64,000 bases of DNA from Saprospirales bacterium (GTDB lineage: Bacteria; Bacteroidota; Bacteroidia; Chitinophagales; Saprospiraceae). The stretch lies in NCBI GenBank assembly GCA_016703765.1, contig JADJBL010000011.1:1-64000 (forward strand), given 5' to 3'. A model generated the notes under the pieces. The model was not told the origin of the DNA, did not search any database, and saw nothing but the letters and a program-made list of their open reading frames with translations. Made by a program: the position numbers and the translations under genes. Every line of letters begins with the position of its first letter. Position 1 is the stretch's first letter. Shown piece by piece: positions 3,077 to 60,611 of the stretch.

Positions 3077-3973
3077 ATGAAAAACATATTTACGATACTC
3101 TTTGTCCTGGCCCTCTTTGGCGCCGCCAACGCCCAGGGACTGGCTTACGGATTCAAGGCGGGATTGAACTTCTCCACCCTCGAAGGCGATCTGGAAAAAG
3201 ACGATAAAGGCGCGAGCGTCGAGGAATTCAACCGGGTGGGCAGCTTTCACGTGGGTTTTGGGTTTTCTTACGGGTTCACGGAACGGATCGGGGCGAGGGC
3301 GGAGCTGATGTATTCCCAGAAAGGCGCGCGGTTCCGCTACGAAGGGACCTCTTACGAGATTCTCACTTCGAAGACCGGAGACCTGATCTATAGTAACGGC
3401 ACGCGGAATACTATAAATAACGTGTTGAACTCCTATATCGACCTGCCGGTTCTTTTTTATGCGCGGCCTCTGAGTTGGTTGGAGATCAGCTTCGGGCCGA
3501 GCGTCGGATTGCTGGTCAGCTCTACCGGGTCCGGCTCGACGGCTTTCAGCGGAAAGACTTTCCTGATCGGCGGCACGCCCTCCGAAAAGACAGTGCCGGA
3601 GCATTCCTTTACCCTGGAAACCAACTACCTGAGCGACGAAACCGGCGAGGCGGATGTGTCCACCACCACTCCATTGACGATCGGTAGCCAGACGGTCGAT
3701 ATCCCCGCCAACATCGGCGCTTATTACGACATCCCTCGCGGCGACGGCAGCTTTTTCAACGCCCTCGACCTCGGTCTCAACGCCGGGCTTTCCCTCTACC
3801 TCAGCCCTACCCTCTACATCGGCGGCCGCCTGAACTACGGCTTGTCGGACGTCACCAACAACAATTATGAATTTTCGCAGGTGAAGCTCGATGCCCAAAA
3901 TGCCCGCATCCCGCGTGCAGATATGGATCGGAATGTGTCGATACAGGCGTCGGTCGGGTTTAACCTGAGATGA
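3077..3973 (+). CDS. Outer-membrane beta-barrel protein, PorT-like family
   Basis: Starting at the ATG at 3077 gives a 298-residue protein with a standard signal peptide (MKNIFTILF...ANAQG). The frame is open further upstream but that extension would bury the signal peptide. The mature part has the features of an outer-membrane barrel: FKAGLNFS after the signal, GFGFSYGF, RAELMYSQKGA, then alternating aromatic strands and a final strand ending in NLR. It belongs to the broad PorT/OMP_b-brl_2 type of Bacteroidota barrels. These are structural or transport proteins of the outer membrane; no specific role can be assigned. Confidence 0.8.
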   Translation: MKNIFTILFVLALFGAANAQGLAYGFKAGLNFSTLEGDLEKDDKGASVEEFNRVGSFHVGFGFSYGFTERIGARAELMYSQKGARFRYEGTSYEILTSKTGDLIYSNGTRNTINNVLNSYIDLPVLFYARPLSWLEISFGPSVGLLVSSTGSGSTAFSGKTFLIGGTPSEKTVPEHSFTLETNYLSDETGEADVSTTTPLTIGSQTVDIPANIGAYYDIPRGDGSFFNALDLGLNAGLSLYLSPTLYIGGRLNYGLSDVTNNNYEFSQVKLDAQNARIPRADMDRNVSIQASVGFNLR

Positions 3974-4032
3974 GTTTTGAGTTTTTAAGGGTATAAGTTT
4001 TTGGCGTTAAAAACTTATAAAAACTTAAAAAC
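3972..4032. repeat. Stop-anchored tandem-unit hairpin A
   Basis: The arm begins at the stop codon of the barrel gene (TGAGTTTTGAGTTTTTAAGG) and is mirrored by AAAAACTTATAAAAACTTAAAAAC just before the stop of the convergent gene at 4037. It is a long imperfect stem with a short GGCGTT loop, made of degenerate units of about 7-8 nt. See hairpins B-L. Confidence 0.75.
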
Positions 4033-4036
4033 CTGA

Positions 4037-4963
4037 TTAATGCAGTTTATCAAAATCCTCCACAATATCGAACAGCATGGAGATATCCTCGTAGAACTCC
4101 CGGACAAGCTCGAAGCTGGTATTGGAGCGGAAGAGGTAGGGCTCCAGGATATTTCGGTCGCCGGTGATGGCCAGGTAGATATTGGTATCGATGAATGAGA
4201 TATAGATCTCCTTATCGGTTTCATCCCGGTAATCCACGAGGAAGTTTTGCATATCGAGGGAGAGCAGGTCGCGCACTTTGGCGTCGGGGGTGGCGTAGGA
4301 GAGGAAGGTCTCGCGAAATTCCTCGCTGCGCATCATGTCGTTGATGCTCCGCGCGCCGTCGCTTACAGAATGCCGGATAGCCCGTGACAGGTATTGGCGG
4401 TATTCCTTCGGGTAGATGGTGATGGCGCCCTGAAGGGACTCCTCCAGGGTGGCGTGCAGAAAGATGCCTTTGAAGACGTAGTTGAGGCGACTGCGCACCC
4501 TGGAGAACTCGCGGACGTTGAGCTCGCAGAGCTCGAAGCTGATGCTGCCAATCTTACCCTTTATATAATCTTCCGCCTCGTACACGTCGGCATTGGAGCC
4601 GAACAGCTTGCTCTCGTGAAAAAGGCTTTTGGGCAAGCCTCCTTTGGCCTCGTAGGTCAGGGCGCCGTAGTTGACGCTGTCGTCTATGAAATCGAGGATG
4701 AGGCTGACGATCTGCGGTTTGAAGGCGCGAAAAAACCGCTGGATGCGGTAGCCCAGAAAGGAGATATACATCCCGATGGGCAGGGTCAGGAGCAGGGTGA
4801 TGAACCAGATGCCCACCACCATTTCGAACAGGAAGACGCCCAGGAGGAAGAGCAAGGACAGGAAAAGCAGCAACAACAGGCGCTTTCGCTGCTTGTCGAG
4901 CCGCATGAGCTCCGGGTGGATCGTATGATTGTAGAAAATTCTGAATTCCTCCAGGCGACGCAT
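4037..4963 (-). CDS. DUF3137-family membrane protein
   Basis: The 308-residue protein has a charged N-terminus (residues 1-27), two adjacent transmembrane helices (about 28-48 and 50-70), then a long cytosolic domain. That domain carries DUF3137 landmarks: LFGSNADVYEAEDYIKGKIG, an ELCELNV stretch and the FKGIFLHATLEE segment followed by ITIYPKEY. Function of the family is unknown. It is monocistronic, transcribed away from the T9SS cargo gene, and shares a hairpin with the convergent barrel gene. Confidence 0.75.
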   Translation of the reverse strand: MRRLEEFRIFYNHTIHPELMRLDKQRKRLLLLLFLSLLFLLGVFLFEMVVGIWFITLLLTLPIGMYISFLGYRIQRFFRAFKPQIVSLILDFIDDSVNYGALTYEAKGGLPKSLFHESKLFGSNADVYEAEDYIKGKIGSISFELCELNVREFSRVRSRLNYVFKGIFLHATLEESLQGAITIYPKEYRQYLSRAIRHSVSDGARSINDMMRSEEFRETFLSYATPDAKVRDLLSLDMQNFLVDYRDETDKEIYISFIDTNIYLAITGDRNILEPYLFRSNTSFELVREFYEDISMLFDIVEDFDKLH

Positions 4964-5119
4964 AAATGGCAGGTATTGGTCAAAAATGCCAAAATTTTAC
5001 AATTTAACCCATAATTTGAAAAGCCATCGTGTTGAATCAACACTTTTATTGCTTTAATGTTACTATATTTACGGGTGTTTGAAACTCAAAAATCTTTCTA
5101 AACCTAAATCGATGTTTTT

Positions 5120-5854: not shown

Positions 5855-5878
5855 TCCTGCCCTAAACAAGTGTAGGGT

Positions 5879-11772: not shown

Positions 11773-11845
11773 TGGGCGGGCTGCGCCCGCCCATTAGTGT
11801 TTCAAAAGAGATTCTGCGGCCTGCGGCCGCAGAATCTCTTTTGAA
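11773..11845. terminator. Two tandem hairpins between mlaE and mlaF
   Basis: The first stem is TGGGCGGGC/GCCCGCCCA (11773-11793). The second is a perfect 20-bp inverted repeat (11801-11820 with 11826-11845) around a CTGCG loop, rich in A/T at its base. Either could attenuate read-through from the permease gene into the ATPase gene; neither has a strong downstream T-run on the plus strand. Confidence 0.65.
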
Positions 11846-12746: not shown

Positions 12747-12792
12747 GTTTATGAGGTTGATAAAGTTTATGAAGTTTATCAACCTCATAAAC
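12747..12792. repeat. Tandem-unit hairpin B (9-nt units)
   Basis: The units GTTTATGAG, GTTGATAAA and GTTTATGAA are mirrored by TTTATCAACCTCATAAAC, giving a near-perfect stem. It lies between the convergent mlaF and glucosaminidase genes, 15 bp from the latter's stop codon. Confidence 0.8.
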
Positions 12793-15595: not shown

Positions 15596-18268
15596 ATGTA
15601 CCGCATTGCCCTCCCCCTGCTGGGCTTGTTTTTGAGCCTGGGCATGTCCCGCGCGCAAGACGCCTTGCTCTCCCCGGCCGATTTTCTGAAGCACCCCTAC
15701 GGCGGGCAATTTACCCCTCACCATCAGGTGGTCGACTACGTGGAATACATCGCCCGCGAAAGCGAAAGAGTGGAACTGCTCACGTACGGATATACCCACG
15801 AGGGCAGACCCCTGCTCCTGGCCTTTATTTCGAGCCCCGCCAACCTGACCCGGCTCGAAGAGATCCGCCAAAACCACCTCCGGCAGGCGGGCTTCCTCGA
15901 CGGGGTGGCCATCAATGAAAGTCCTGTCGCCATCGTCTGGCTCAGCTTCGGCGTGCACGGCAACGAAGCGGGCGCCACCGAAAGCTCCATGGGCGTGCTG
16001 CATGCTCTGGCCGACCCCGGCCATGCGGAAACGGGAAAATACCTGGAAAACACCCTGGTCATACTCGACCCCGCCGTCAATCCCGACGGCAATAACCGCT
16101 ATACCAACTGGTACCGCCAGGTGGCCCCACTGGAAGCCGACCCCCTCGAATTTACCCGCGAACACCAGGAGCCCTGGCCCGGAGGCCGCGAAAACCACTA
16201 CCTGTTCGACCTCAACCGCGATTGGGCCTGGGGAACCCAGTCGGAGACCCGCGACCGGCTCGAACAGTACCAGCGCTGGCTGCCCCATATCCACGTGGAC
16301 TACCACGAGCAGATGCCCAACGACCCCTATTACTTCGCCCCCGGCGCCGAACCCTATCACCCCGCCATCACCCAGTGGCAAAGAGATTTCCAGGTGGAGA
16401 TCGGCAAAAACAACGCCTCCTATTTCGACCGCGAGGGCTGGCTCTACTTTACCCGCGAATATTTCGACCTCTTTTACCCCGGATACGGCGATACCTATCC
16501 CACCTTCGCCGGGGCCATCGGCATGACCTACGAGCAGGCGGGCCACGGCAGGTCCGGCAGGTCCATCGAACTCGAAAACGGCGATACCCTCACCCTGGCC
16601 GACCGAATCGACCACCATACCACCACGGCCCTTTCGACCGTGGAAATCGCATCCCGGAACGCCCAGGGACTGGTCAGGCAGTTTGTGGAGTTTTACAACC
16701 GCTCCCGCACCAACCCGCCGGGTCCTTTCAAATCCTTCGTCATCCGGGCTTCCAATCCGCCGGACCAGCTCCGGGCATTCACCCGGTTTTTGGATATGCA
16801 TCAAATCGCTTACGGAAAAGCGGGCAAGAGGCGATCCCTCGAAGCGTACGACTACCTGACGGGCGCAACCTATACCACAGCCATTTCCGACGAGGACCTG
16901 GTCGTTTCGGCCTACCAACCTGCTGGCGCCCTGGCACAGGTGCTCCTGGAGCCCGTGGCCTCCCTTTCCGATTCGCTGACCTACGACATTACGGCCTGGT
17001 CGGCCATCCTGGCCTATGGCTTCGACGCCCTGGCCCTCGCCACCCGGCTGGAACCCGAAGCCCCCTGGCAGCCGCTTCCCTATCAGAAAGGCAATTGGCC
17101 CGAACAGGCGCCCTATGCGTTTCTCCTGCCCTGGACCTCGGTCGAAGACGCCCGCTTTTTGGGTAGCCTGCTCCGGGAAGGGATCGTCGTGCGGGTAGCT
17201 ACCAAGCCTTTTCGCATCGATGGCCGGGATTACGAGCGCGGCACGTTGGTCATTACCAGGGCCGACAACCGGAAATGGGAGGGTTTTCACCGGCAGGTCA
17301 AGTCGCTTGCCGAAGCCGGGGAGCGCAACCTGGTGGCCATCGGCTCCGGCTTCGTGGAAACGGGTTTCGACTTCGGCTCCGAATCCATGCGCCTTTTGCG
17401 CTCGCCGAAGATCGCACTCATCGCGCCGGCAGGCGCCGACCCGGATGCCTTCGGGAGCGCCTGGTATTATTTCGAACAAGTGCTGCAATACCCCGTATCG
17501 ATCCTCGATGCCTCTGGCTTCCATCCTTCGAAGCTGGAGGGAATGGACCTGCTCATCCTGCCCGACGGCTACTACTCCTGGGACGAAAATATCAGAAGCA
17601 GGCTGGCCGATTGGCTCCGCTCGGGCGGAAAGGTGATCGCCATCGGCAGGGCCCTCGACTGGTTGCAGTATGTGGGCGGCGTGCACCTGACCGTGGCCGA
17701 CACGACCCCGAAAGTCGAGAAACCGGAGGAGAAAATACCGGAAAGGTATGAGGAGCGCGAACGGAATGCCCTTTCCAAGCAAATTCCGGGCGCCATTTTT
17801 AAAGCCGTGGTCGACAATTCCCACCCCGTCGGTTTTGGGATTCCGGACTCCTATTTCACCCTGAAAAGGGGGGCCCGTGCGTTTTCTTATCTCGAAAAGG
17901 CAGGCAACGTAGCCTACCTCGAAGAAGAACCGTTTTCGCTGGGCTTTGTGGGTTCTGAGGCGAAGCTCAAGGTGAAGAAAACGCTGGTCTTGGGCGCCGA
18001 GGCCATCGGAAAAGGCTCGGCGGTGTATTTCGTAGACGACCCCCTCTTCCGCGGTTTTTGGCACAGTGGCCACCTCCTCTTCGCCAATGCGGTTTTTTTC
18101 GGGGATTGTAAGTTGTTTGTATTTTTGACAAGCAGGCGCTCAGTCAAATTATTTGATGATGTAAATATATCCTTTGATTTTACCGCCAAGACGCAAAGAC
18201 CGCTAAGAGGACACAAATATTCTTTGCGGTTTTCTTTGCGCCTTAGCGTCTTTGCGGTTCATTCTTGA
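15596..18268 (+). CDS. M14 family zinc carboxypeptidase-like exoprotein
   Basis: Starting at ATG 15596 gives a signal peptide (MYRIALPLLGLFLSLGMSRAQ). The M14 peptidase domain covers about residues 35-360, with zinc ligands His121 and Glu124 in GVHGNEAGATES and a later His in HVDYHEQ. A long C-terminal region follows, with a glutamine-amidotransferase-like segment (MDLLILPDGYYSW). The family normally ends near the HLLFANAVFF motif at about residue 833. Here the frame runs on for about 60 residues through intergenic repeat L, and inserting one T in the T-run near 18095-18101 would give an early TAA. The true C-terminus is therefore probably near 18110. Confidence 0.85.
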   Translation: MYRIALPLLGLFLSLGMSRAQDALLSPADFLKHPYGGQFTPHHQVVDYVEYIARESERVELLTYGYTHEGRPLLLAFISSPANLTRLEEIRQNHLRQAGFLDGVAINESPVAIVWLSFGVHGNEAGATESSMGVLHALADPGHAETGKYLENTLVILDPAVNPDGNNRYTNWYRQVAPLEADPLEFTREHQEPWPGGRENHYLFDLNRDWAWGTQSETRDRLEQYQRWLPHIHVDYHEQMPNDPYYFAPGAEPYHPAITQWQRDFQVEIGKNNASYFDREGWLYFTREYFDLFYPGYGDTYPTFAGAIGMTYEQAGHGRSGRSIELENGDTLTLADRIDHHTTTALSTVEIASRNAQGLVRQFVEFYNRSRTNPPGPFKSFVIRASNPPDQLRAFTRFLDMHQIAYGKAGKRRSLEAYDYLTGATYTTAISDEDLVVSAYQPAGALAQVLLEPVASLSDSLTYDITAWSAILAYGFDALALATRLEPEAPWQPLPYQKGNWPEQAPYAFLLPWTSVEDARFLGSLLREGIVVRVATKPFRIDGRDYERGTLVITRADNRKWEGFHRQVKSLAEAGERNLVAIGSGFVETGFDFGSESMRLLRSPKIALIAPAGADPDAFGSAWYYFEQVLQYPVSILDASGFHPSKLEGMDLLILPDGYYSWDENIRSRLADWLRSGGKVIAIGRALDWLQYVGGVHLTVADTTPKVEKPEEKIPERYEERERNALSKQIPGAIFKAVVDNSHPVGFGIPDSYFTLKRGARAFSYLEKAGNVAYLEEEPFSLGFVGSEAKLKVKKTLVLGAEAIGKGSAVYFVDDPLFRGFWHSGHLLFANAVFFGDCKLFVFLTSRRSVKLFDDVNISFDFTAKTQRPLRGHKYSLRFSLRLSVFAVHS
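18179..18266. repeat. Tandem-unit hairpin L (CGCAAAGAC type)
   Basis: The left arm is CGCCAAGACGCAAAGACC then GCTAAGAGG. The right arm holds TTTGCGGTT, TTCTTTGCG, CCTTAGCGT and CTTTGCGGTT. The units are about 9 nt. It lies between the M14 peptidase and fahA, inside the probably spurious C-terminal extension of the peptidase frame. Confidence 0.8.
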
Positions 18269-18273: not shown

Positions 18274-19539
18274 ATGATCCAAGCCAATGACCCCTCGCTG
18301 AAAACATGGCTCGAAGTTCCCGAGGGGAGCGATTTCCCTATTCAGAACCTTCCTTTCGGGGTTTTCCGGACCCAAAGCAATCCCGCGCCGCGGCTATGCA
18401 CCGCTATTGGGGATTACGTGATCGACCTCTCGGTCCTGAACTTTTTGTCCGTTTTCGACGAGCTGGATTTTCCGCCGGAAGTGTTTTTGTCCTCGTCTAT
18501 CAATAATCTTATGGCCTTGGGCAGGCCTAAGGCCCTGCAGTTGCGCAACCGCCTGGCCGATTTATTCCACGAAGGGAATACCGAGATCAGGGATAGCGCT
18601 TGGCATTATCTCCACCCCGTCGAAAAAGTGGAGTTGCTGCTCCCGGTTCAGATCGGGGACTATACCGATTTCTATTCCAGCATCGAGCACGCCACCAACG
18701 TGGGCTCGATGTTTCGCGATCCCGCCAACGCCCTGCTCCCCAACTGGCGGCACTTGCCGGTGGGGTACCACGGCCGGGCTTCCTCCATCGTGGTGTCCGG
18801 CACGCCGATCCGCCGGCCCAAGGGGCAAACCCGTCCCAAAGACGAGGAGCCGCCGGTTTTCGGGCCCAGCCGCCAACTCGACTTCGAGCTGGAGACGGCT
18901 TTCGTCATCGGAAAAGAAACTGCGCTCGGCCAATCCGTCTCCACCTCCGAAGCAGAGGACCATATTTTCGGAATGCTCCTCTTCAACGACTGGTCGGCCA
19001 GGGATATCCAGAAATGGGAATACGTGCCCCTCGGGCCTTTTCTGTCAAAAAATTTCGGATCCACCGTTTCGCCCTGGGTCGTCACCCTCGACGCCCTGGA
19101 ACCCTTTCGGGTAAAGGGGCCGGAGCAGGAACCCAGTCCCTTGCCCTACCTGCAATTTCAGGGAAAAAAGAACTACGATATCCGGCTGGAAGTGGCTATC
19201 CGCACAGCGGCCGGCGCCGAAAAGACGGTTTGCCGCTCCAATTTTCAATACATGTACTGGAATATGTGCCAGCAACTGGCCCACCACACCGTCAACGGCT
19301 GCAATCTCCGGGTGGGAGATCTCTGCGCCTCCGGCACCATCAGCGGCCCGACCCCCGACTCCTACGGATCGATGCTCGAACTCGCCTGGAAAGGGACCCG
19401 CCCGATCGACATGCCCGACGGCTCTATCCGCACCTTTATCCAGGACGGAGACACGGTCATCGTCAAGGGCTTTGCGGAAAAAGACGGCCTTCGCATCGGG
19501 TTTGGGGAAGCGAAGGGAGAGGTGCTGCCCGCTTTTTAG
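18274..19539 (+). CDS. fahA: Fumarylacetoacetase
   Basis: The 421-residue enzyme hydrolyses fumarylacetoacetate to fumarate and acetoacetate, the last step of tyrosine breakdown. It shows the N-terminal FAH domain (FPIQNLPFGVFR), the metal site DYTDFYSSIEHATNVG, catalytic region LPVGYHGRASSIVVSG, DFELE, FNDWSARDIQKWEYVPLGPF and the end motif CASGTISGPTPDSYGSMLEL. ATG 18274 is preferred over the TTG three codons earlier. No other tyrosine-degradation genes are in the window. Its TAG stop codon is the first element of hairpin C. Confidence 0.95.
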   Translation: MIQANDPSLKTWLEVPEGSDFPIQNLPFGVFRTQSNPAPRLCTAIGDYVIDLSVLNFLSVFDELDFPPEVFLSSSINNLMALGRPKALQLRNRLADLFHEGNTEIRDSAWHYLHPVEKVELLLPVQIGDYTDFYSSIEHATNVGSMFRDPANALLPNWRHLPVGYHGRASSIVVSGTPIRRPKGQTRPKDEEPPVFGPSRQLDFELETAFVIGKETALGQSVSTSEAEDHIFGMLLFNDWSARDIQKWEYVPLGPFLSKNFGSTVSPWVVTLDALEPFRVKGPEQEPSPLPYLQFQGKKNYDIRLEVAIRTAAGAEKTVCRSNFQYMYWNMCQQLAHHTVNGCNLRVGDLCASGTISGPTPDSYGSMLELAWKGTRPIDMPDGSIRTFIQDGDTVIVKGFAEKDGLRIGFGEAKGEVLPAF

Positions 19540-19626
19540 TTTAGGGGGTTTAGGAAGTTTAGAAGGTTTAGTCTTTTAATGCTGACTAAACCTCCTAAAC
19601 CCTCTAAACATCCTAAACCCTTTAAA
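19540..19626. repeat. Stop-anchored tandem-unit hairpin C (9-nt units)
   Basis: The left units GTTTAGGGG, GTTTAGGAA, GTTTAGAAG and GTTTAGTC are followed by a short loop and GACTAAACC, TCCTAAACC, CTCTAAACA, TCCTAAACC. It starts in the fahA stop codon. The six-base core pairs exactly, while the purine triplets between cores vary and pair imperfectly. Confidence 0.85.
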
Positions 19627-24932: not shown

Positions 24933-24962
24933 AGTTAAGGAATAGTCCTTGTGATGAATACA

Positions 24963-25033
24963 GTTTAAATGGTTTAGAGGGTTTAGAGAGTTTAGTTCGC
25001 TAAACCTTCTAAACCCTCTAAACTTTCTAAACT
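24963..25033. repeat. Tandem-unit hairpin D (9-nt units)
   Basis: The left units are GTTTAAATG, GTTTAGAGG, GTTTAGAGA and GTTTAGTT; the right arm is CTAAACCTT, CTAAACCCT, CTAAACTTT and CTAAACTCTTC. On the minus strand the first GTTTAAGTG unit is the last codons and stop of the acetate kinase fusion gene. Confidence 0.85.
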
Positions 25034-31870: not shown

Positions 31871-31951
31871 GTTTAGGTGGTTTAGAAAGTTTAGGATGTT
31901 TAGTTTTTTATGTCTGCTAAACTTCCCTAAACCTTCTAAACCTCCTAAACC
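31871..31951. repeat. Tandem-unit hairpin E (9-nt units)
   Basis: The left arm holds GTTTAGGTG, GTTTAGAAA, GTTTAGGAT and GTTTAG; after a TTTTTATGTCTG loop come CTAAACTTC, CCTAAACC, TTCTAAACC and TCCTAAACC. It abuts the terminator on one side and the stop of the S8 protease gene (7 bp away) on the other. Confidence 0.85.
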
Positions 31952-39932: not shown

Positions 39933-40013
39933 ATTTTTAGTTTTTAGTGCTTAGTTTTTAGTTGGGGCGAAGCCTGAACTAACTAAAAATTCAAAACTAA
40001 AAACTAAAAACTA
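39933..40013. repeat. Stop-anchored tandem-unit hairpin F (7-nt units)
   Basis: On the minus strand it begins with the TAG stop of the GH92 gene and repeats TAGTTTT, TAGTTTT, is mirrored by CTAAAAACTAAGCACTAAAAACTAAAAA, and stops 7 bp before the MFS start codon. With 7-nt spacing the TAG falls in successive frames. Confidence 0.82.
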
Positions 40014-42896
40014 CCGAATTGTTATTTCGTCCGCAAAAACCCAACTCTTCCCCCCTTCCCCTTTATGGCCCGGCGGACAAACGCCGCGGTTGACGCCTTT
40101 CACCCTGATATAGCGGGCTTTGGCTTTGACGGGCCTGGCGTAGGACTGGATCAGCACCCCCGGCTTTAGGGGAGAGGTTTCCGTCTCCACGGCCCCAAAT
40201 CTTTCCAGTTTTTTCCATCTTCCGAAATGGCGAACTCTACGCGGAGGGGATAGAAAATCCAGGCGTTTTCGTCCTGCAGGAAGCGAACGGCGACCTCTTT
40301 CAGGGGAATGGACTCGCCCAGATCGAGCGTGGCGTCGAGGTCGACGCCTTCGTAGCCCTGCCATTCGCCGGTGCGGAAATCGGGGCCTCCCTCCAAGCCG
40401 TCTACCAGGCCCTGGTCGCCGCCGGCGGTGTATTGGCGGCCGTAGGGGTTGGCCAGGGCGATGCCCACCTTTCGGGACCGTTTGACAAACTCCGCCGCGA
40501 TGACCTTGCTCGGGCCGCTTTCGGGGTGAATGGCCACGGCTTTCAGGGTCGTGGTTTTGTCGATGGCAAAAGGTTTTTCAAATTTCAGGGCAGTCGCAGG
40601 CGCGGGCTCCGAGCCGTCGAGGGTGTAGTAGATGAGCGCATCCCGCGAGGCGCAGTTGAGGGCGATGGTATCCGTGTCGTCGAAGGAGCGATGGCCCTGG
40701 GAAAGGCGGGTAAAGGCGTGATCAGATGCTCGCCGATGCGGCTTTGTGGCCTATCGCCAGGCTGAGAACCCCAGCCCAGATTGGGTTCCTCGCCCACCTC
40801 GAATTCCAACAGCCCGCCCGCAACGATGTCTTCGTGGCGGATAAAGCTTTTCATATGGGGCTGACCGTTGAGGCGCACCGATTGAATATAGGGAGTACCC
40901 TTCCCTTGTCCGGTCGTTTTTACGGTGAAAGTTTTTCCGTTTTCGAGGTTCAGCGTGGCTTCCCGCAATTTCGGCGCCCCGAGGGCATACTCCCCGCTGC
41001 CGGGGCATACGGGGTAAAAGCCCATGGCGCTGAAGACGTACCAGGCCGACATTTGTCCGCAGTCCTCATTTCCCGAAAGACCGTCGGGGGCGTTGTGGTA
41101 AAGGGTGCTCATGATCTCCCAGACCCGTTCCTGGGTTTTCCAGGCGGCCCCGTCGTAGTTGTAGAGGTAGGCCATGTGGTGGCTGGGCTCGTTGCCGTGC
41201 GCATATTGCCCGATGAGTCCGGTGATGTCGGATTGTTCGCGGCCGGTGGTTTTCGAGTCGGCGGAAAAGAGGTCGTCGAGAAAATCGCTGAGCTTATCCT
41301 GGCCGCCCAGCAAATCCTTCCAGCCATCCACATCCTGCGGCACGTAGAAGCTGTACTGCCAGGCGTTGGCCTCGGTATAGTTGAAATTGACCTCGGAGGG
41401 ATCGAAGGGCTTTGCCCAGCGATGCCGGTTGCGGGCCCGCATGAAGCGGGTATCGGGGTCGTAGAGGTTTTTGTAGGATTGGGCGCGGCGGAGGTATTCG
41501 GCGTAGACATCCTCTTTCCCCATGGCTTTTGCCATTTGGGCGATACACCAGTCGTCGTAGGCGTATTCGAGGGTTTTCGAAACCGATTCCCCTTCCACGT
41601 CCGAGGGGATGAAGCCCCAATCCATGTAGGCTTTTTTGCCGAATTTGTCTTGTCGGGAAATGGCGAGCATGGCCTCCAGGGCTTTTTCCGCGTCGAAGTC
41701 GCGGATGCCTTTGAGGTAGGCGTCGGCGATGACCGACACGGAGTGGTAGCCGATCATGCAATAGGTCTCGTTGCCGGCCAGTTCCCAGACCGGTAGTTCG
41801 CCGCCCTGCTCGTGGTGGCGGAGGAAGGAATGGATGAAGTCGTTGCTGCGATCCACTTCCAAAATGGTGTAGAGCGGATGGGTAGCGCGGTAGGTATCCC
41901 AGATGGAGAAAACGGTGTATTGGGGGTGATCGCCGGCTGTGTGGATCTGCCGGTCCAGCCCGCGGTAGCGCCCATCCACGTCGGAGAATATGTTGGGCAC
42001 GACGCTGTTGTGGTAAAGGGCGGTGTAGAAAATGGTTTTGGTCTCCTCGTCCCCTACTGCTTTTACTTTGGACAGCTGCGTCTCCCATTTATCGGAAGCC
42101 TGTTTCCGGATGGCTTCAAAATCCCAGCCGGGCAGTTCCGCATCGAGGTTTTTGCGGGCGCCTTCGATATCGACGGCCGAGATCCCGACCTTGACCAGCA
42201 GGGTATCGGCGCCGGCCAGGTCGAACAGGAAGGCCGCTTTCGGCAGGGAATCTTGTATCGTTTTAAAAAAGGGTTTGGAAAAACGGGCGACGAAATAGAC
42301 GTGTTGCTCCCGCGCCCAGGCGTTCGACACCCGGAAGCCTTCGATCTCGGTATCGGAAACTACGCGCATGCTGTCTGCCCGCAGGCGGTCGCGGTGGGTG
42401 AGGTCGAGCAGGATATGGGCCGTATCGGCTTTTTCAAAAACATAGCGGTGAAAGCCCGTGCGTTCGGTGGCGGTCAGTTCGACCTGTACATCGGGCCCGT
42501 CCAGATGCACGGCGTAGTAGCCCGGCTCGGCTTTTTCAGTTTCCTTGCGGAAAGGCGATCTATAGCCCGGCTGCCCGTCGGCGCCGTTGTGGAAAAGAAC
42601 CGGCCCTGTGCCGGGCATGAGCAGGATATCGCAGTAGTCGGGAATGCCCGTGCCGCTGAGGTGGGTATGGCTGAACCCGTAAATGATCGAATCGGTGAAA
42701 TGGTAGCCCGAGCAGCCGTCCCATCCTTCCAGGCGGGTATCGGGGCTGAGTTGCACCATGCCGAAGGGCAGGGTGGCGCCGGGGTAGGTATGGCCGTGCC
42801 CGCCCGTGCCGATGAAGGGGTTGACGAAGGAGGTCAGCCGGGGGTGGGCGTGGAGCAGGCGAGATAGGACAAGACGAGGGGAAGGAGGTATTTCAT
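40011..42896 (-). CDS. GH92 family alpha-mannosidase lipoprotein; frameshifted as sequenced
   Basis: The true start is probably ATG 42896, giving a lipoprotein signal (LLPLVLSYLACS). A C missing in the run at 42840-42844 shifts the frame before LTSFVNPFIGTGGHGHTYPGATLPFGMVQLSPDTR, the GH92 N-terminus. Most of the enzyme (42759-40700) is intact, with SIWDTYRATHPLYTI, AGNETYCMIGYHS, MDWGFIPSD and NEDCGQMSAWYVFSAMGFYPVCPG. Further deletions near 40693 and in CCCC 40193-40196 break a C-terminal chitobiase-like/F5-8-like region ending FADEITIR. The enzyme trims alpha-mannosides at the cell surface. About 960 residues when joined. Confidence 0.88.
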
Positions 42897-42966
42897 GGTG
42901 ACTGGTGACTGGTGATTAGTGACTGGTAAAAATACTAGTCACCAGTCACTAATCACTAGTCACCAA
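42897..42966. repeat. Stop-to-start tandem-unit hairpin G (7-nt units)
   Basis: On the minus strand it runs from the last codon and TGA stop of the SDR gene (TGGTGACTAGTGATTAGTGAC) through a short TATTTTTAC loop to TCACCAGTCACC directly against the ATG of the GH92 gene. The whole gap is repeat. Confidence 0.85.
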
Positions 42967-54617: not shown

Positions 54618-54621
54618 ATTA

Positions 54622-54747
54622 GTTGAAAAGTTGAAAAGTTGAAAAGTTGAAAAGTTGAAAAGTTGAAAAGTTGAAAAGTTGAATTTCTTTTTGGCAAAGC
54701 CAAAAAGGCTTCCTTTAAACTTTAAACTATTCAACTTTTCAACTCTC
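54622..54747. repeat. Stop-to-start tandem-unit hairpin H (AGTTGAAAA units)
   Basis: Plus strand: at least seven uniform AGTTGAAAA units, then a stem around TTTTTGGC/GCCAAAAA, then TTCAACTTTTCAACTCTCTCA. On the minus strand the first unit encodes the last codons and TGA stop of the maturation protease, and the array ends at the transporter ATG. It is the most regular array, so it may be the youngest. Confidence 0.88.
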
Positions 54748-55237
54748 TCATGACTAATTCCCTCACCGCCTTCGCCACTTCCGGCAGCAGGGCTTTCGTT
54801 TCCGGCGACAATCCTACGTACAAGGGCTGCATATCGGAAATACTGATAACAAACAAATATACATTGGGCATGCGACCTAACAGCTGCATGCCGTCGAGAA
54901 TGTCTTTCAAACCGATATCGTGGGTGCTGAGAGATTTCGGATAGTCTTTGGAAAAACGAGGGCGGATGAGCCGGAACTGGCCGCTCCGCTCGGGCTCCAG
55001 GGCGGCGTCGATGAGGATGACGACGGGGTAATCATCGAGATAGCCCATGAGTTGAAAGCCTGCCGTGCCGCCGTCTTCTACGCTGACCCCGGCGGGCCAT
55101 TCCTCCTCTGCGAGACGGTGGGCCAGATGCACCCCTACGCCTTCATCTCCCATCAGCAAATTGCCGATGCCGAGTATCAGAATGCGATTCTCCGGGTCGC
55201 CCACCGTCTCTTCAGCAAAGGAAGGACTTGTTTTCAT
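54731..55237 (-). CDS. Hydrogenase maturation protease (HyaD/HupD family)
   Basis: The 168-residue endopeptidase cleaves the C-terminal extension of the hydrogenase large subunit after nickel insertion. Family motifs are ILILGIGNLLMGDEGVGVHLA (with Ni-binding Glu), DGGTAGFQLMGYL and LIDAALEPERSG, and STHDIGLKDILDG with the conserved His. It overlaps the cytochrome gene by 4 bp. The last codons are shared with hairpin H. Confidence 0.93.
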   Translation of the reverse strand: MKTSPSFAEETVGDPENRILILGIGNLLMGDEGVGVHLAHRLAEEEWPAGVSVEDGGTAGFQLMGYLDDYPVVILIDAALEPERSGQFRLIRPRFSKDYPKSLSTHDIGLKDILDGMQLLGRMPNVYLFVISISDMQPLYVGLSPETKALLPEVAKAVRELVMRELKS

Positions 55238-55938
55238 TCAACTTTCGATTCTTCTTTTTCAAAAACATCTTCTTCGATGAATTTCCAACCTCCACCCATG
55301 GAGGATATTTCGCCCCTGCCTTCTACGTAGTCGTGATAGAAAACCAGGTACACGTGTATGATCGCAAAGACGATAAAGAACCACATCGCGGCGTGGTGCC
55401 AGTTGCGCAGCCCGAAATCGCCGCCAAACACGCCCGATACCCAGACCCAAAGGTCGGCAAACCACCAGTCGCTCATGCCCGCGTAGAGGCCGAAACCGGT
55501 CACGCATTGCAACAGAAAGGCCAGAAAGGTCAGGAAATAAATAAACCCGGCCAGGGCATTGTGCCCGACCGACAGATGGTCCCGGTTCTTTTGCAGCAGG
55601 ATGTCGATGCGCAGCACGTCCCGCATTTCGCGGAAAAACTTCCGTCCTGTGGGAATGAAATTCTTCCAGTCGGCGTATTTGTTGCCGACAAAGCCCCAGT
55701 ACAGGCGGAACAGAAAATTAAAGAAGAAAATATAGGCCGCCGTGAAATGGATAAAGCGGATCGTCCCGAAAAGGAACCGGTGGGACGCCTCCGCCGTCGA
55801 TTGGATCGCAGGCGGGTTTCCGATCAGGTAGCCGGTAACGCAAAGTCCGACCACGGCCAATGCGTTGATCCAGTGGTAGACCCGTACGGGGAGTTCCCAT
55901 ACGAATACGCGACGAAGTCGTGTTGATGTTGCTTCCAT
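55234..55938 (-). CDS. hyaC: [NiFe] hydrogenase b-type cytochrome subunit
   Basis: The 234-residue membrane protein has four helices and heme-ligand histidines: VRVYHWINALAVVGLCVTGYLIG, RFIHFTAAYIFFFNFLFRLYW, VGHNALAGFIYFLTFLAFLLQCVTGFGLY and LRNWHHAAMWFFIVFAIIHVYLVFYHDYVEGRG. It takes electrons from the small subunit and passes them to quinone. Gene order large subunit, cytochrome, protease is standard for uptake hydrogenases. Confidence 0.95.
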   Translation of the reverse strand: MEATSTRLRRVFVWELPVRVYHWINALAVVGLCVTGYLIGNPPAIQSTAEASHRFLFGTIRFIHFTAAYIFFFNFLFRLYWGFVGNKYADWKNFIPTGRKFFREMRDVLRIDILLQKNRDHLSVGHNALAGFIYFLTFLAFLLQCVTGFGLYAGMSDWWFADLWVWVSGVFGGDFGLRNWHHAAMWFFIVFAIIHVYLVFYHDYVEGRGEISSMGGGWKFIEEDVFEKEESKVE

Positions 55939-55951
55939 GCGGAAAGGTATT

Positions 55952-57670: not shown

Positions 57671-57698
57671 GGCGATTGTGTGTGGTTAGTGAAGCGGT

Positions 57699-58817
57699 TT
57701 ACAATTCCTTTTCGGCTTCTCGGCCTTCTTCGATGTGCGAGGAGATGAGTTTCGACTTCCGTAAATTGGTGGCTATGGCATGGGCCGTCACACCGGCAAC
57801 CGTTGCGGCGCCAGCGATCATGCCCACCTTGTCGGCGTTGCTCTCTATCCCGAACCCGGGAAAGTTGGCCATTTGCCGGTAAAGCGGCCCGTTGTCCCAG
57901 AAATTCTCCTCACTGCATCCAAAACAGCCGTGACCCGACTGGATGGGGTAGCTCACTCCGTTGTTCCAGCGCATCACGCCGCAGGCATTGTAAGTGCTCG
58001 GGCCTTTGCAGCCCACTTTGTAAAGGCAATAGCCCTTCTGTGCATTCTCGTCGTCAAATGTTTCCACAAATAGCCCGGCATCGTAGAAGGGACGCCGGTA
58101 GCAGGTGTCGTGCACCCGCTTGGAATAAAAAGCTTTCGGACGGCCCACGCGATCCAGTTCGGGCAAACGACCGAACGTGATGATGTGAACCAGCACCCCG
58201 GCCATCACTTCTCCGATCGGCGGGCAGCCCGGCACCTTGATGATCGGCTTGCCTTTGATCAGTTTGTGGATCGGCGTGGCGCCGGTTGGATTGGGCTTGG
58301 CGGACTGCACGCAGCCATTGCTGGCGCAACTGCCCCAGCAGATCACCGCCTTGGCGCCCTCGGCGCATTCCTGCAAGATATCCATCGAAGATTTCCCCCC
58401 GATGCAGCAGTAAACCCCGTCGGCTCCGGTCGGAACCGAGCCTTCCACGCACAACACGTATTCGCCGTGGTATTTTTCCATCGTCGATTTCATGGCTTCT
58501 TCGGCCCGATGCCCGGAAGCGGCCATGAGTGTTTCGGTGTAATCCAGGGAGATTTTGTCGAGCACGATATCCGCCACGATCGGATGCGACGAACGGATAA
58601 ACGACTCGCTGCAGCAGGTGCATTCCTGAAAATGCAGCCAAATCACCGGGATGCGGGGAGTGGTTTCCAGCGTTTTGGCGATTTGCCCGGCGGCGCTGGC
58701 CTCCAAGCCGAGATAGGCGGCCATCATAGTGCAGAATTTCATGAAATCCCGGCGCGAATAGCCTTTGTCCCTTAATTCTTCGTAATAGCTGGGGCGTTTT
58801 GTAGTGGTGGGATGCAT
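57699..58817 (-). CDS. hyaA: [NiFe] hydrogenase small subunit, oxygen-tolerant type
   Basis: The 372-residue subunit has a twin-arginine signal (YSRRDFMKFCTMMAAYLGLEASA), the iron-sulfur domain and a C-terminal membrane anchor (VGMIAGAATVAGVTAHAIA). Proximal-cluster cysteines are C66-T-C68-C69, then C164 and C169 in WGSCASNGC, and C198 in PGCPP. The spacing CxCC-X94-C-X4-C-X28-C is the six-cysteine [4Fe-3S] pattern of O2-tolerant membrane-bound hydrogenases (Ralstonia MBH, E. coli Hyd-1). Standard enzymes have Gly at the two extra positions. Medial and distal cluster motifs (CYRRPFYDAG, CLYKVGCKGPSTYNACG) are present. Confidence 0.96.
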   Translation of the reverse strand: MHPTTTKRPSYYEELRDKGYSRRDFMKFCTMMAAYLGLEASAAGQIAKTLETTPRIPVIWLHFQECTCCSESFIRSSHPIVADIVLDKISLDYTETLMAASGHRAEEAMKSTMEKYHGEYVLCVEGSVPTGADGVYCCIGGKSSMDILQECAEGAKAVICWGSCASNGCVQSAKPNPTGATPIHKLIKGKPIIKVPGCPPIGEVMAGVLVHIITFGRLPELDRVGRPKAFYSKRVHDTCYRRPFYDAGLFVETFDDENAQKGYCLYKVGCKGPSTYNACGVMRWNNGVSYPIQSGHGCFGCSEENFWDNGPLYRQMANFPGFGIESNADKVGMIAGAATVAGVTAHAIATNLRKSKLISSHIEEGREAEKEL

Positions 58818-58831
58818 AACAGCGCTGTTAT
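58816..58831. promoter_or_regulatory. 16-bp perfect palindrome at the hydrogenase start
   Basis: ATAACAGCGCTGTTAT overlaps the hyaA start codon region (58815-58817). It could be an operator or a hairpin in the leader. No regulator is assigned. Confidence 0.45.
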
Positions 58832-58898
58832 TTGTTTGTTTTCAGCAATAGAATAACATGGGGTTGTTCAAAATTATAACCCTGTTCCCCTACGGCAT

Positions 58899-58935
58899 TA
58901 TGACATTTATCATCCCCGGCTATGACTTTTATCAT
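58899..58935. promoter_or_regulatory. Paired FNR/CRP-like activator sites in the divergent hydrogenase region
   Basis: TATGACATTTATCAT (58899-58913) and TATGACTTTTATCAT (58921-58935) differ at one position, each forming an ATGA-N6-TCAT inverted repeat. Their centres are 22 bp apart, two helical turns. The nearer site lies about 45 bp before the expected start of the rightward hyp transcript, a usual activator position. The regulator is not identified. Confidence 0.6.
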
Positions 58936-58958
58936 GCAGGTCCCTATGCCCCTCCCCC

Positions 58959-58966
58959 TAATTTTG
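58959..58966 (+). promoter_or_regulatory. -7 promoter box for the hyp operon
   Basis: TAATTTTG matches TAnnTTTG. The expected -33 position holds no TTTG, consistent with activator-dependent initiation from the adjacent sites. Confidence 0.55.
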
Positions 58967-58989
58967 TAAAGGTTCTAAATCCTTACACC

Positions 58990-59193
58990 ATGAAAAGAAT
59001 TCTGTCGGCTATCCTCCTGCTTGTTCCCGTTACGATGTTCGCCCACGAAGGCCATGGACATTACCCCGCAACCCAGGTTTGGCATTACCTCACCTCCCCC
59101 GGGCATATTGTTCAGACTTCCATAGTAGTAGCAGCTTTTGTAGCTATTTTGGTTTTTCAGGGAGTGAAGAGGCTCAAGGCCAGCAAGCGATAA
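58990..59193 (+). CDS. Small His-rich membrane protein at the head of the hyp operon
   Basis: ATG 58990 gives 67 residues: a signal peptide (MKRILSAILLLVPVTMFA), a HEGHGHYP segment and one transmembrane helix (IVQTSIVVAAFVAILVFQG) with a basic tail RLKASKR. The histidine cluster just outside the membrane could bind nickel for hydrogenase maturation, by analogy with HupE-like proteins, but it is far too short to be HupE. Function unknown. Hairpin I separates it from hypA. Confidence 0.65.
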   Translation: MKRILSAILLLVPVTMFAHEGHGHYPATQVWHYLTSPGHIVQTSIVVAAFVAILVFQGVKRLKASKR

Positions 59194-59196
59194 ATC

Positions 59197-59275
59197 AGTT
59201 TTTAATTTTTAGTTCTTAGTTTTTAGTTAGTCGCAAGTAAAAACTAAGAACTAAAAATTAAGAATTAAAAACTAT
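59197..59275. repeat. Stop-to-start tandem-unit hairpin I (7-nt units)
   Basis: It begins 3 bp after the TAA stop of the small protein (AGTTTTTAATTTTTAGTTCT and on), loop GTCGCAAG, mirrored by AAAAACTAAGAACTAAAAATTAAGAATT, and ends 5 bp before the hypA ATG. It fills the whole gap. Confidence 0.85.
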
Positions 59276-59278
59276 TCC

Positions 59279-59620
59279 ATGCACGAGTTATCCATCGTCC
59301 AAAGCATCATCGGCATAGCCGAGGAGCAGGTCCGCAAAGCGAACGCAAAAACGGTGGATGCCATTGAATTGGAAATTGGCGCCCTGGCCGGTATCGAATG
59401 GGAAGCTCTGGATTTTGCCTGGCAGGCCGGCGTACCGCAAACGGTGCTGGCCCATGCCACACGTTCGATCCACCGCATTCCGGCCCGGACCCGCTGCTCC
59501 GCCTGCGCCCTCGAATTCGAATCGGCCGAATGGTTCGCCCCCTGCCCCAACTGCGGAGAAATATTGGGGGATTTGATACAAGGGAGGGAGCTGAGGGTGA
59601 AGACACTGGTGGTTTCTTGA
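59279..59620 (+). CDS. hypA: Hydrogenase nickel metallochaperone HypA
   Basis: The 113-residue protein has the invariant MHE nickel-binding N-terminus (MHELSIVQSIIGIAEEQ) and two zinc CxxC pairs (CSACALEFES and CPNCGEI). It delivers nickel to the large-subunit precursor together with HypB. Length normal. Next in the operon is hypB, with only hairpin J between. Confidence 0.95.
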   Translation: MHELSIVQSIIGIAEEQVRKANAKTVDAIELEIGALAGIEWEALDFAWQAGVPQTVLAHATRSIHRIPARTRCSACALEFESAEWFAPCPNCGEILGDLIQGRELRVKTLVVS

Positions 59621-59709
59621 AATGGTTTAGTTGGTTTAGGAAGTTTAGGAGGTTTAGATTTACGACACCTCTAAACCTTCTAAACCCCTAAACTTCCTAA
59701 ACTTTAAAC
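59621..59709. repeat. Stop-to-start tandem-unit hairpin J (9-nt units)
   Basis: The gap between the hypA TGA and hypB ATG is wholly GTTTAGTTG, GTTTAGGAA, GTTTAGGAG, GTTTAG, a loop ATTTACGACAC, then CTAAACC-type units. It ends directly against the ATG, leaving no room for a ribosome-binding site. Confidence 0.88.
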
Positions 59710-59710
59710 T

Positions 59711-60526
59711 ATGTGCGACACCTGCGGCTGCAACCAAGCGGCTAACGCCGTCAAGATCACTTTAATCGGAGAAGAAATCGAAGTTATGCACGACCACGAT
59801 CACGATCACGGCCACGGCCACCATCACCACCACGAGCATGGTCATGAGCATGGCCACGACCATTCCCATGGCAAGACGGTCATAGAGCTCGAACAGGATA
59901 TTTTGTCGCAAAACAATCGCCTGGCCGAGCGCAACCGCGGCTATTTCGAAGCAAAAAAGATCCTGGCCCTCAACCTGGTCAGTTCGCCCGGCTCCGGCAA
60001 GACGGCCATCCTCGAGCGCACCCTCGCCGACCTGAAGGGGGAATTGTCCTTCTTCGTCATCGAAGGCGATCAGCAAACCACCCGCGACGCCGATCGCATC
60101 GCCGCCACCGGCGCGCCCGTCGTGCAGATCAATACCGGCTCCGGCTGTCACCTCGATTCCGATATGGTCAACCGCGCCGTCAAAAAACTCGAGCCCTCCG
60201 AGGGTGCATTCCTCATGATCGAAAACGTGGGCAACCTCGTTTGCCCCGCCCTCTTCGACCTGGGCGAAGGCCGCCGCGTCGTCATCATCTCCGTCACCGA
60301 AGGCGACGACAAGCCCCTGAAGTATCCCGATATGTTCCATACCTCGGATCTGTGCCTCATTAACAAGATCGACCTGCTGCCCTACGTGCCTTTCGATGTG
60401 GAAAAAACGAAACACTACGCCCGCCACGCCAACCCCAAACTGCAATTCATCGAAGTCTCCGCTTTGACGGGGCAAGGGATGGAGGAGTGGTATGGGTGGT
60501 TGCGGAAGGAGCGGAAAGAACTTTGA
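59711..60526 (+). CDS. hypB: Hydrogenase nickel insertion GTPase HypB
   Basis: The 271-residue protein begins MCDTCGCNQ, the high-affinity nickel motif CxxCGC, followed by a His-rich stretch (HDHDHDHGHGHHHHHEHG and on, about residues 27-56) that can store nickel. The GTPase domain has P-loop LVSSPGSGKTAILE, GDQQTTRDADRI, IENVGNLVCPALFDLGE with Cys for metal at the dimer interface, and LINKIDLLPY (NKID guanine motif). It uses GTP hydrolysis to hand nickel to HypA and the hydrogenase. Confidence 0.96.
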   Translation: MCDTCGCNQAANAVKITLIGEEIEVMHDHDHDHGHGHHHHHEHGHEHGHDHSHGKTVIELEQDILSQNNRLAERNRGYFEAKKILALNLVSSPGSGKTAILERTLADLKGELSFFVIEGDQQTTRDADRIAATGAPVVQINTGSGCHLDSDMVNRAVKKLEPSEGAFLMIENVGNLVCPALFDLGEGRRVVIISVTEGDDKPLKYPDMFHTSDLCLINKIDLLPYVPFDVEKTKHYARHANPKLQFIEVSALTGQGMEEWYGWLRKERKEL

Positions 60527-60529
60527 AAA

Positions 60530-60611
60530 AAGGTTTAGAATGTTTAGAGAGTTTAGGAGGTTTAGTTTTGTAAGCCTCTAAACCTTCTAAACCTCCTAAA
60601 CCTTCTAAACG
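60530..60611. repeat. Tandem-unit hairpin K (9-nt units)
   Basis: The left units are GTTTAGAAT, GTTTAGAGA, GTTTAGGAG and GTTTAG; loop TTTTGTAAGC; the right arm is CTCTAAACC, TTCTAAACC, TCCTAAACC and TTCTAAAC. It lies between hypB and hypC with only 3 and 8 bp to spare on either side. Confidence 0.87.

Follow-up and report, generated by a model that had tools for sequence, protein, structure and literature searches.

Inverted arrays of 7-9-nt units behind stop codons in Saprospiraceae: possible cistron-end stem-loops with changing letters

The 64,000 nucleotides analysed here (the window; contig JADJBL010000011.1 of a Saprospirales bacterium) hold twelve hairpins whose arms are arrays of short tandem units, and the units differ from locus to locus. 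Why should unlike repeats take the same form at the ends of genes? Inverted arrays of C-poor 7-9-nt units closely follow stop codons on the 3' side, both between cistrons and in convergent gaps, and they often take up the whole gap. As to the reason, we give about an even chance to the suggestion that these are REP-like stem-loops at cistron ends, selected for their shape, while their letters are rewritten quickly at the DNA level.

An earlier note, made from the letters of the window, had described twelve stop-anchored inverted arrays, and these are real: all 12 loci were found. Folded as RNA, each is better than its 200 dinucleotide shuffles, with z from -3.5 (3972) to -10.2 (42896); at 11 loci no shuffle folded as well, and at 3972 one did. 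The hairpin finder allowed no bulges and loops of up to 60 nt; the hairpins at 3972 and 18176 fell under its stem score, and it caught only 16 bp of the one at 59624. Of 13 inverted repeats tested in the window, 8 had arms more periodic than shuffled ones (p<=0.01, match >=0.6). The five that fell short are the non-periodic stems at 11800, 45857 and 53522, together with 12747 (lag-9 match 0.67) and 59624. Rfam at gathering scores gave two tRNAs in the whole window and nothing else.

Four hairpins lie in convergent gaps and are assigned to neither strand. The weakest, with a T-rich 5' arm (3972..4032, z -3.5), starts in the stop codon of a plus-strand gene ending at 3973. The next (12747..12792, z -8.4) has an 18-bp perfect stem of a GTTTATGAG-type unit with period 9, and the other two are built of GTTTAGnnn (24962..25033, z -8.1; 31871..31950, z -8.6), the second directly behind a GC-rich terminator-like hairpin. 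On the plus strand, a hairpin of a CGCAAAGAC-type unit (18176..18258, z -6.1) lies inside a called ORF (15596-18268), in its 3' tail, and an in-frame reading as the final codons of that ORF is possible. A GTTTAGnnn array of period 9 (19539..19626, z -7.4) has as its first base the last base of a stop codon and ends 14 nt 5' of the next gene's ATG. Three more plus-strand hairpins accompany hyp genes: AGTTTTT, period 7, placed 3 nt past the stop of the short ORF 58990-59193 and 4 nt before hypA (59197..59274, z -10.1), and GTTTAGnnn in the hypA/hypB gap (59624..59702, z -6.7) and in the hypB/hypC gap (60530..60610, z -7.7). On the minus strand are TTTTTAG, period 7, flanked by minus-strand genes (39934..40013, z -5.9); GTGACTG, period 7, with a 6-nt overlap with the stop codon of gene 42960-43637 (42896..42965, z -10.2), a similar unit being present in the relative G785; and AGTTGAAA (54621..54744, z -5.0), which fills the gap between two genes and overlaps the last codons of 54731-55237 (HycI).

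The earlier note gave a period of 7 or 9, but AGTTGAAA at 54621 has period 8, in 7.9 perfect copies, so that the window shows periods of 7, 8 and 9. Period 8 is common in relatives: periodic hairpins of G001 number 27 of period 7, 15 of period 8 and 16 of period 9. Hairpin arms are mostly A+T-rich. The note's remark that arrays start in the stop codon or last codons is true of several loci. The distance from the stop is 0-4 nt at 3972, 19539, 59197, 59624 and 60530, and the hairpins at 42896 and 54621 overlap the last codons of the upstream genes, but those at 24962, 12747 and 31871 are 29, 62 and 64 nt away, respectively. The short ORF 58990-59193 was missed by the gene caller; it has a signal-peptide-like start with TAATTTTG upstream, and its longer form gave no match in Pfam or NCBIfam.

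Position relative to stops and gap types

Gene calls throughout are those of a codon-score caller. Eight congeners of a distant relative, Saprospiraceae UBA6168, supplied 83 periodic hairpins in gene gaps. Both enrichment at stops and rarity in divergent gaps are seen outside the window, in support of the earlier note: 69 of the 83 hairpins lie in co-directional gaps and six in divergent gaps, which hold 25% of gap bases (p=2.4e-5 by bases). In the eight congeners and the window together, 73 of 91 hairpins are no more than 20 nt from a stop; random placement in the same gaps would give 60.0. In roomy gaps (26 of these hairpins), 12 are near a stop where 3.5 are expected and 6 near a start where 3.6 are expected (p=0.14), with no start anchoring. 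In a separate count, 59 of 77 co-directional hairpins begin no more than 15 nt from the stop. The asymmetry between stops and starts speaks against a rather unlikely alternative, namely that the hairpins are mutational by-products, periodic palindromes made in free sequence by slippage and template switching, purged from coding and promoter DNA, and without function.

For the window, the rule that every array lies 3' of a gene and none in a divergent gap depends on the short ORF 58990-59193: if this ORF is real, the rule has no exception there. Among relatives the avoidance of divergent gaps is a strong tendency, with exceptions also for GTTTAG hairpins (5 of 22 examined; two of these five are also among the six congener cases). 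Of 107 periodic hairpins, ten calls fell within predicted genes of G001, and five UBA6168 hairpins lie in 5' leaders instead. Whole gaps were folded too. In G001, strong folds (z<-3) occur in 42% of 266 co-directional, 59% of 58 convergent and 7% of 58 divergent gaps; in G785 the values are 39%, 67% and 5%, and G005 and G003 show the same order. The only comparison genomes for the count of periodic hairpins were G003, with 4 in 300 kb, and G043, with none in the 80 kb scanned; hairpin densities are biased, some stretches having been chosen because hairpins were known there.

Could the hairpins be intrinsic transcription terminators of unusual make? Strong folds, such as terminators have, are most frequent in convergent gaps and are present in all five G005-C70/C1-type and other convergent gaps; one hairpin of G690 has seven T in a row behind it. 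This T run, the only one among the hairpins read, is absent from the G610 counterpart. Separate terminator-like stems exist as well, one of them directly before the hairpin at 31871..31950. Most congener hairpins are in co-directional gaps, including those between nuo genes, and the window has them between hypA, hypB and hypC. Genes of both groups are normally co-transcribed, which for the present cases we infer from gene order, and for this reason termination, one of the roles that the earlier note had suggested, is not supported as the main one. As a general explanation terminators are improbable.

If the hairpins are instead cistron-end stem-loops, several things might follow from a position like that of REPs. 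An mRNA stem directly behind the stop codon would close off ribosome-free RNA; it could shield the 3' end of the upstream cistron after cleavage, and it may affect ribosomes that have reached the stop. Where genes converge, the hairpin would be the terminal stem.

Folds and units at orthologous gaps

The nuoA-nuoB gap carries inverted arrays in all seven congeners that show the full gap, built of three unrelated units, with flanking proteins 86-99% identical; in G004, outside this count, a contig end cuts the gap and the 3' array alone is visible. The gap folds with z from -5.3 to -8.0 in six and with -4.7 in G005. The long-looped arrays of G005, G595 and G788, and an array in the third G610 gap, were recognised by eye and then folded. 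More generally, 20 of 27 orthologous co-directional gap pairs of less than 70% identity have both members strongly folded, five have one and two neither. The permuted mean for both is 10.2 (p=0.001), where the pairs are non-independent, some groups overlap and gap length is uncontrolled.

The sister species G690 and G610, whose genes are mostly 88-94% identical, give the closest view. All four hairpin gaps retain a strong fold (z -3.4 to -11.9) with changed units, and both arms change together; three of these gaps measured 45, 54 and 71% identical, and one divergent gap 99%. A strong fold thus tends to persist at orthologous gaps while the unit changes, and shape seems to matter more than letters. 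This persistence beyond permutation is again not what functionless by-products lead one to expect. Such by-products do find support in the frequency of gains, losses and unit swaps, and in a direct 7-nt array that differs by three units between G690 and G610, as from slippage. Against selection for shape, some orthologous gaps have lost the hairpin or lack one: of six congeners examined at nuoB-nuoC, two have a hairpin and four a gap of 0-33 nt.

An RNA role of the hairpins is what we infer, and a test of mismatches gives it no support. On the sense strand of 77 hairpins, G-U mismatches number 45 and A-C mismatches 51 (p=0.61); there is no G-U excess, and therefore no sign of selection on RNA pairing, as also expected of by-products. 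At the DNA level, the arrays of cistron-end stems would be replaced fast by unit slippage and by the spread of a favoured unit within the genome, one arm being adjusted to the other; template switching has been described in print as a process that can both create and repair stems. If so, any hairpin would serve and none would be conserved by sequence.

Arms, loops and the spread of units

The 5' arm has more G than C in 93 of 97 hairpins, so that arms are G-first and C-poor; the GTTTAG-first pattern occurs in two of 348 genomes and the CTAAAC-first pattern in none of them. Neither this fixed arm order nor the spread of units across the genome is explained by cistron-end stems. By-products do not account for the order either, nor for unit families common to several loci and species. 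Rho loads on C-rich, G-poor RNA, and a G-rich 5' arm, made first, might mask such a 3' arm; anti-Rho shields of this kind would explain the arm order. They are most unlikely, for a bare C-rich array lies on the sense strand in G690 and G610, and similar hairpins of 7-bp repeats are described in filamentous cyanobacteria (PMC2670836), cyanobacteria being described as without Rho (PMC13289151). A stop codon in every unit was also considered as the purpose and dropped; GGATTGC has none.

Another suggestion, very doubtful as a whole, is that the arms are written rather than copied: the hairpin would break internally, both 3' strand ends would receive the same nearly C-free 7-9-nt repeat, and the ends would be rejoined. 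The geometry resembles two fused telomeres, with the G/T-rich strand running inward from both sides. Each hairpin would then have a private loop, G-first arms, and a shared unit with unshared variable positions; inner units would be younger than outer ones, and each genome would show its current favourite. Compatible with this are the G-rich 5' arms, distinct loops, unmirrored spacers, changed units and the amplification by each genome of its own unit. Against it, a few hairpins mirror an odd-length unit (by eye, 4 of 34 GTTTAG hairpins, three only after a one-unit shift), and the loops of orthologous G005/G787 hairpins look alike.

Fold-back mirror copying was rejected. The variable spacers of the 34 GTTTAG hairpins, in fixed register, match at 0.531 in mirror and 0.570 in non-mirror comparison (p=0.63), and with a one-unit shift allowed at 0.681 against 0.664 permuted (p=0.16). 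Over whole arms the best pairing is 22.2 against 18.4 for permuted units, with 11 of 107 hairpins at p<=0.05, a biased test since arms were chosen for pairing.

The 107 hairpins fall into at least 25 unit clusters, a low number since single linkage lumps unlike 7-mers. Among 53 GTTTAG matches (some are one locus fetched twice) there are 41 distinct loops, and 2 of 820 loop pairs are alike, against none in shuffles. The earlier note had named a single mobile family behind all units as what would count against it, and that is not what is seen. Its purely local expansion, on the other hand, is too narrow, because the same units are met at several loci and every genome has amplified a unit of its own. 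Might the hairpins then be copies of miniature mobile elements, REP/REPIN or MITE-like? Unit families do extend across loci and species, and the AT-rich loops of three G690 hairpins look similar by eye. Yet GTTTAG loops are mostly unrelated, which also makes a single mobile hairpin behind that class unlikely. GTAG/CGTC-type tags, counted on both strands up to 6 nt from the stem base, occur at 12 of 107 hairpins, near the estimated chance rate. Y1_Tnp is found in 8 of 12 genomes; G785, with 19 periodic hairpins in 420 kb, has none. With loops mostly unrelated, tags at a low rate and a Y1 transposase apparently not needed, one mobile family behind all units is unlikely, and we regard copies of mobile elements in general as highly improbable.

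GTTTAG hairpins were also seen in G002, a MAG titled Thermoanaerobaculia, where congener proteins gave matches of 29-51% to 3 of 8 loci; this MAG may be contaminated or mislabelled. This genome enters only the GTTTAG-hairpin counts, the GTTTAG loop, spacer-mirroring and unit-shift tests, and the leader and divergent placement of GTTTAG hairpins.

Comparison with known systems

How do cistron-end stems of this kind relate to repeats already described? REP and BIME elements are placed mainly in uni-directional gaps and in convergent ones, beside 3' ends (PMC3733652), and PMC12306157 cites work in which ribosomes can be stalled by a REP no more than 15 nt from a stop. The present hairpins likewise lie at the 3' ends of genes and seldom in divergent gaps. 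They differ in having no common consensus palindrome in many copies (unit clusters are many and GTTTAG loops mostly unrelated) and no GTAG or CGTC tag at the stem base as a rule among the 107. Their stems consist of tandem units, a RAYT seems not to be needed, and letters are replaced at orthologous sites.

TAACTGA heptamer repeats are reported from intergenic DNA of Beggiatoaceae, cyanobacteria and five Bacteroidetes (PMC4679880). On the other strand such arrays read AGTTATC, and G690 has GTTATCA-type units. As described in the same source, they are direct, without predicted structure and, in BOGUAY, mostly just upstream of starts; the arrays here are inverted, structured and stop-anchored, and the window's units differ.

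The closest kind are the heptamer (STRR) hairpins of filamentous cyanobacteria (hupS-hupL, upstream of hoxW), usually of 7-bp repeats, intergenic, with transcript stability or translational coupling proposed and a function given as not known (PMC2670836). In Nostoc, co-transcription of the hyp operon extends over intergenic regions with GTTGTCA-type and ATTGCGA-type repeats, the GTTGTCA repeats being listed there as forming no hairpin (PMC2408588). Likewise, short tandem units of about 7 bp stand in intergenic DNA of the window (39934, 42896, 59197) and its arrays fold into hairpins, some of them among hyp genes; G690 has GTTGTCA-type units. The differences are that the window's host is one of the Bacteroidota and not a filamentous cyanobacterium, that 8- and 9-nt units occur too and both arms are fully arrayed, and that stop anchoring, arm order and unit replacement at orthologous gaps have been measured. 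The function of the cyanobacterial repeats is still described as not known in the work cited here. A group of Bacteroidota that keeps the shape and replaces the letters makes both stem selection and repeat writing testable, and the G690/G610 replacements are recent enough for study at the strain level. If only the stem counts, such elements escape searches by sequence, and repeats long classed as 'junk' would turn out to be a general device of cistron ends.

Periodic hairpins in the window and among its relatives

All twelve inverted arrays claimed in the earlier note are found where it described them, with strong predicted RNA folds (z against dinucleotide shuffles -3.5 to -10.2) and, in most cases, A+T-rich arms. 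The unit periods of 7 and 9 given there both occur, and a period of 8 has to be added for the AGTTGAAA array. The position is also correct: each of the twelve is placed 3' of a gene or within its last codons, with the qualification that the hairpin at 59197 hinges on a short ORF (58990-59193). Before this ORF stands TAATTTTG, which we take to be of the Bacteroidota -7 type TAnnTTTG.

Several other features of the window can be mentioned. The NiFe-hydrogenase cluster at 54012-60868 (small and large subunits, b-type cytochrome, HycI, HypA, HypB, HypC) contains four of the twelve hairpins, three of them at the hyp genes: one ahead of hypA and one in each of the gaps hypA-hypB and hypB-hypC. Hairpin 18176-18258 is readable in frame as the final codons of a peptidase-M14 ORF, and words like GCAAAGAC, which are similar to it, presumably occur in other phyla. 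The stems at 11800, 45857 and 53522, which lack periodicity, resemble ordinary terminators, and so does a G+C-rich hairpin directly preceding 31871. The stem at 11800-11846, perfect over 22 bp, lies in a co-directional gap behind a second small stem. Tandem repeats are present at 48096-48153 (18-nt unit) and, within the HypB gene, at 59789-59835 (6-18-nt units).

Pfam matches to DUF4835, GEVED and GH92 place the window in Bacteroidota. Since RecN is only 45-47% identical to that of the nearest genomes in samples of 395, 248 and 199 genomes, the window's own genus is absent from these samples. One scan of a species-genome collection found the strict GTTTAG hairpin in 20 stretches, from MAGs titled Saprospiraceae (three genomes), Chitinophagaceae (two) and Thermoanaerobaculia (one). 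The last has many such hairpins on low-coverage contigs (stretches L004, L005, L007, L011, L012, L017, L018, L020), and these contigs are possibly Bacteroidota contamination.

Relatives were studied mainly in the genus of UBA6168 (G001), represented by 14 genomes; among the others, the 11 with a RecN match are 61-80% identical to G001 in this protein. The DNA scanned from this genus was 1.02 Mb (G001), 420 kb (G785), 183 kb (G005) and small portions of five further congeners; for comparison, 300 kb came from a genome of Chitinophagaceae (G003) and 80 kb from another genome (G043). Under our criteria (arm of at least 16, lag 6-10, shuffle p at most 0.01, match at least 0.6) there are 107 periodic hairpins: 58 in G001, 19 in G785, 6 in G005, 4 each in G786, G787 and G003, 3 in G595, 1 in G004, none in G788 or G043, and 8 in the window, counts that are affected by the choice of several stretches for hairpins already known there. 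Exclusion of ten inside predicted genes and two at contig edges, all from G001, leaves 83 in the gaps of eight congeners.

Position relative to genes

These 83 are distributed over co-directional, convergent and divergent gaps as 69, 8 and 6, the available gaps of 50-1500 nt being 645, 129 and 178. The suggested absence from divergent gaps is a depletion (Fisher p=0.003 per gap, p=2.4e-5 by bases), with 6 of the 83 present there. The enrichment at stops is borne out: 73 of 91 hairpins (the 83 and the eight of the window) are stop-anchored against 60.0 expected from random placement within each gap, and 12 of 26 against 3.5 in roomy gaps. Anchoring at starts is not above chance (53 against 52.0, n=91; roomy gaps 6 against 3.6, n=26). 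Fold z-scores of all 50-250-nt gaps give the same picture. In co-directional gaps the stem begins a median of 4 nt past the stop, and the hairpin fills at least 60% of the gap in 53 of 74 cases.

Of the 22 GTTTAG hairpins examined in UBA6168, five are in divergent gaps, all at a distance of 1-18 nt from a start codon. A TAnnTTTG, a motif contained in 1.8% of random 70-nt windows, precedes three of these five by 23-42 nt. The common denominator of hairpin sites is transcribed but untranslated sequence, strongly biased to gene ends.

Hairpins and their units in orthologous gaps

At recN, the sister species G690 and G610 share 93.7% identity across 2.1 kb; in the stretch compared, identity is 88-94% for five gene calls, 81% for one and 45% for another, a cut end. 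All four hairpin gaps found are strongly folded in G690 and G610 alike (z -3.4 to -11.9), and their units have changed. In one gap, between a stop and a TTTGTAACTTTG-like element that are both conserved, the 7-nt GTTGTSS of G690 is matched by the 9-nt GTTTATRGG of G610; another has GACTGTA against a GGGAGWG-type unit, and two have GTTRTSR-type against GTTCTC-type units, the difference being present in both arms. Identity is 45, 54 and 71% in three hairpin gaps, 99% in a divergent gap and 88-89% in two further co-directional gaps. One of these last two (gap 11052-11282) contains a direct 7-nt GTCACCY array with six copies in one sister species and three in the other, a difference that fits slippage by whole units. 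In the array that precedes dacB, the species share the 22 nt at the outer left but neither the inner units nor the loop. The gap of hairpin D (19539-19626 in the window) was considered as an orthologue of this dacB gap and rejected: the gene behind it is of dacB type too, but the preceding gene differs.

The nuoA-nuoB gap is fully available in seven congeners, with flanking proteins 86-99% identical and units that differ: GTTTAGnnn in G001, GGATTKC in G005, G595, G785, G787 and G788, and AAAGTAC/AAAGGAA in G786. Three of these arrays have loops beyond the finder's limit and were spotted by eye and then folded (z -8.0 in G595, -5.3 in G788, -4.7 in G005). Between nuoB and nuoC, six congeners were compared: G001 and G786 have a hairpin and four others a gap of 0-33 nt. 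The gap of G785 at this place measures 465 nt. The nuo operon of UBA6168 (stretch L125, 11533-17654) has extra genes between the nuo genes, and one ORF there ends in a stop codon supplied by the first GTTTAG unit of the following hairpin.

An inverted repeat occurs in at least one species in 27 of 62 orthologous neighbour pairs (a few groups being listed twice). Across these 27, the unit is kept (GGCAGTT, GGGATGA, ATTGYTAT, GTTTAG) or changed, or the hairpin is absent. Among 27 pairs of co-directional gaps with diverged sequence, both members are strongly folded in 20, one in five and neither in two; the 20 compare with a permuted mean of 10.2 (sd 2.7, p=0.001), the pairs being non-independent and gap length uncontrolled. 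In one orthologous gap (group G005 96/77; G785, G595, G788, G786, G005, G004) the hairpins of the species are very unlike and several are non-periodic, so the keeping of a stem may extend beyond periodic arrays.

The order of the arms is fixed. The 5' arms consist of 32% G, 34% T, 28% A and 6% C; of 97 such arms, 93 have more G than C, one is a tie and three show the reverse bias, all CACAGAGG-type from G595. Among other hairpins the bias is slight overall (105 to 90 of 216) and present in the strongly skewed ones (49 to 8), many of which are perhaps decayed members. A search of 348 genomes of the order gave the GTTTAG-first pattern in two and the CTAAAC-first pattern in none. Each genome has its favourite unit: with overlapping registers included, the GGATTKC pattern is found 24 times in G610, 18 in G595 and once in G001, and the GTTTAG pattern 13 times in G001 and in neither G610 nor G595. 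The loops of GTTTAG hairpins are mostly unrelated to one another. Their spacers are purine-rich (A 46%, G 44%), with no detectable mirroring between arms, even with a shift allowed.

Possible working and comparison with known systems

From position and persistence we infer a function: the stem behind the stop codon may well be the selected feature, its letters free to vary, in a REP-like placement. A test of G-U against A-C mismatches gave no support for selection on RNA pairing. Stems, as described in PMC8794818, can be created and maintained by template switching, and this could couple the two arms of one locus; it does not account for the genome-wide spread of one unit or for the one-way arm order.

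Among the matches listed, none deals with inverted arrays of 7-9-nt units at Bacteroidota gene ends, which is weak evidence of absence, as subscription journals are thinly covered. The TAACTGA arrays are direct and predicted to be unstructured, according to PMC4679880, and PMC4853749 repeats this. REPs, according to PMC3733652 and PMC12306157, have their location in common with our hairpins. The nearest kind is the cyanobacterial STRR hairpin (PMC2670836 and PMC2408588); the latter describes heptamer repeats between the genes of the Nostoc hyp operon, and the window likewise has hairpins between its hyp genes. The hairpins form a real class, a variant of this heptamer-hairpin kind. What is new is the measured stop anchoring, the mixture of periods 7, 8 and 9, the fixed arm order and, chiefly, that the hairpin persists while its unit is replaced, down to sister species.
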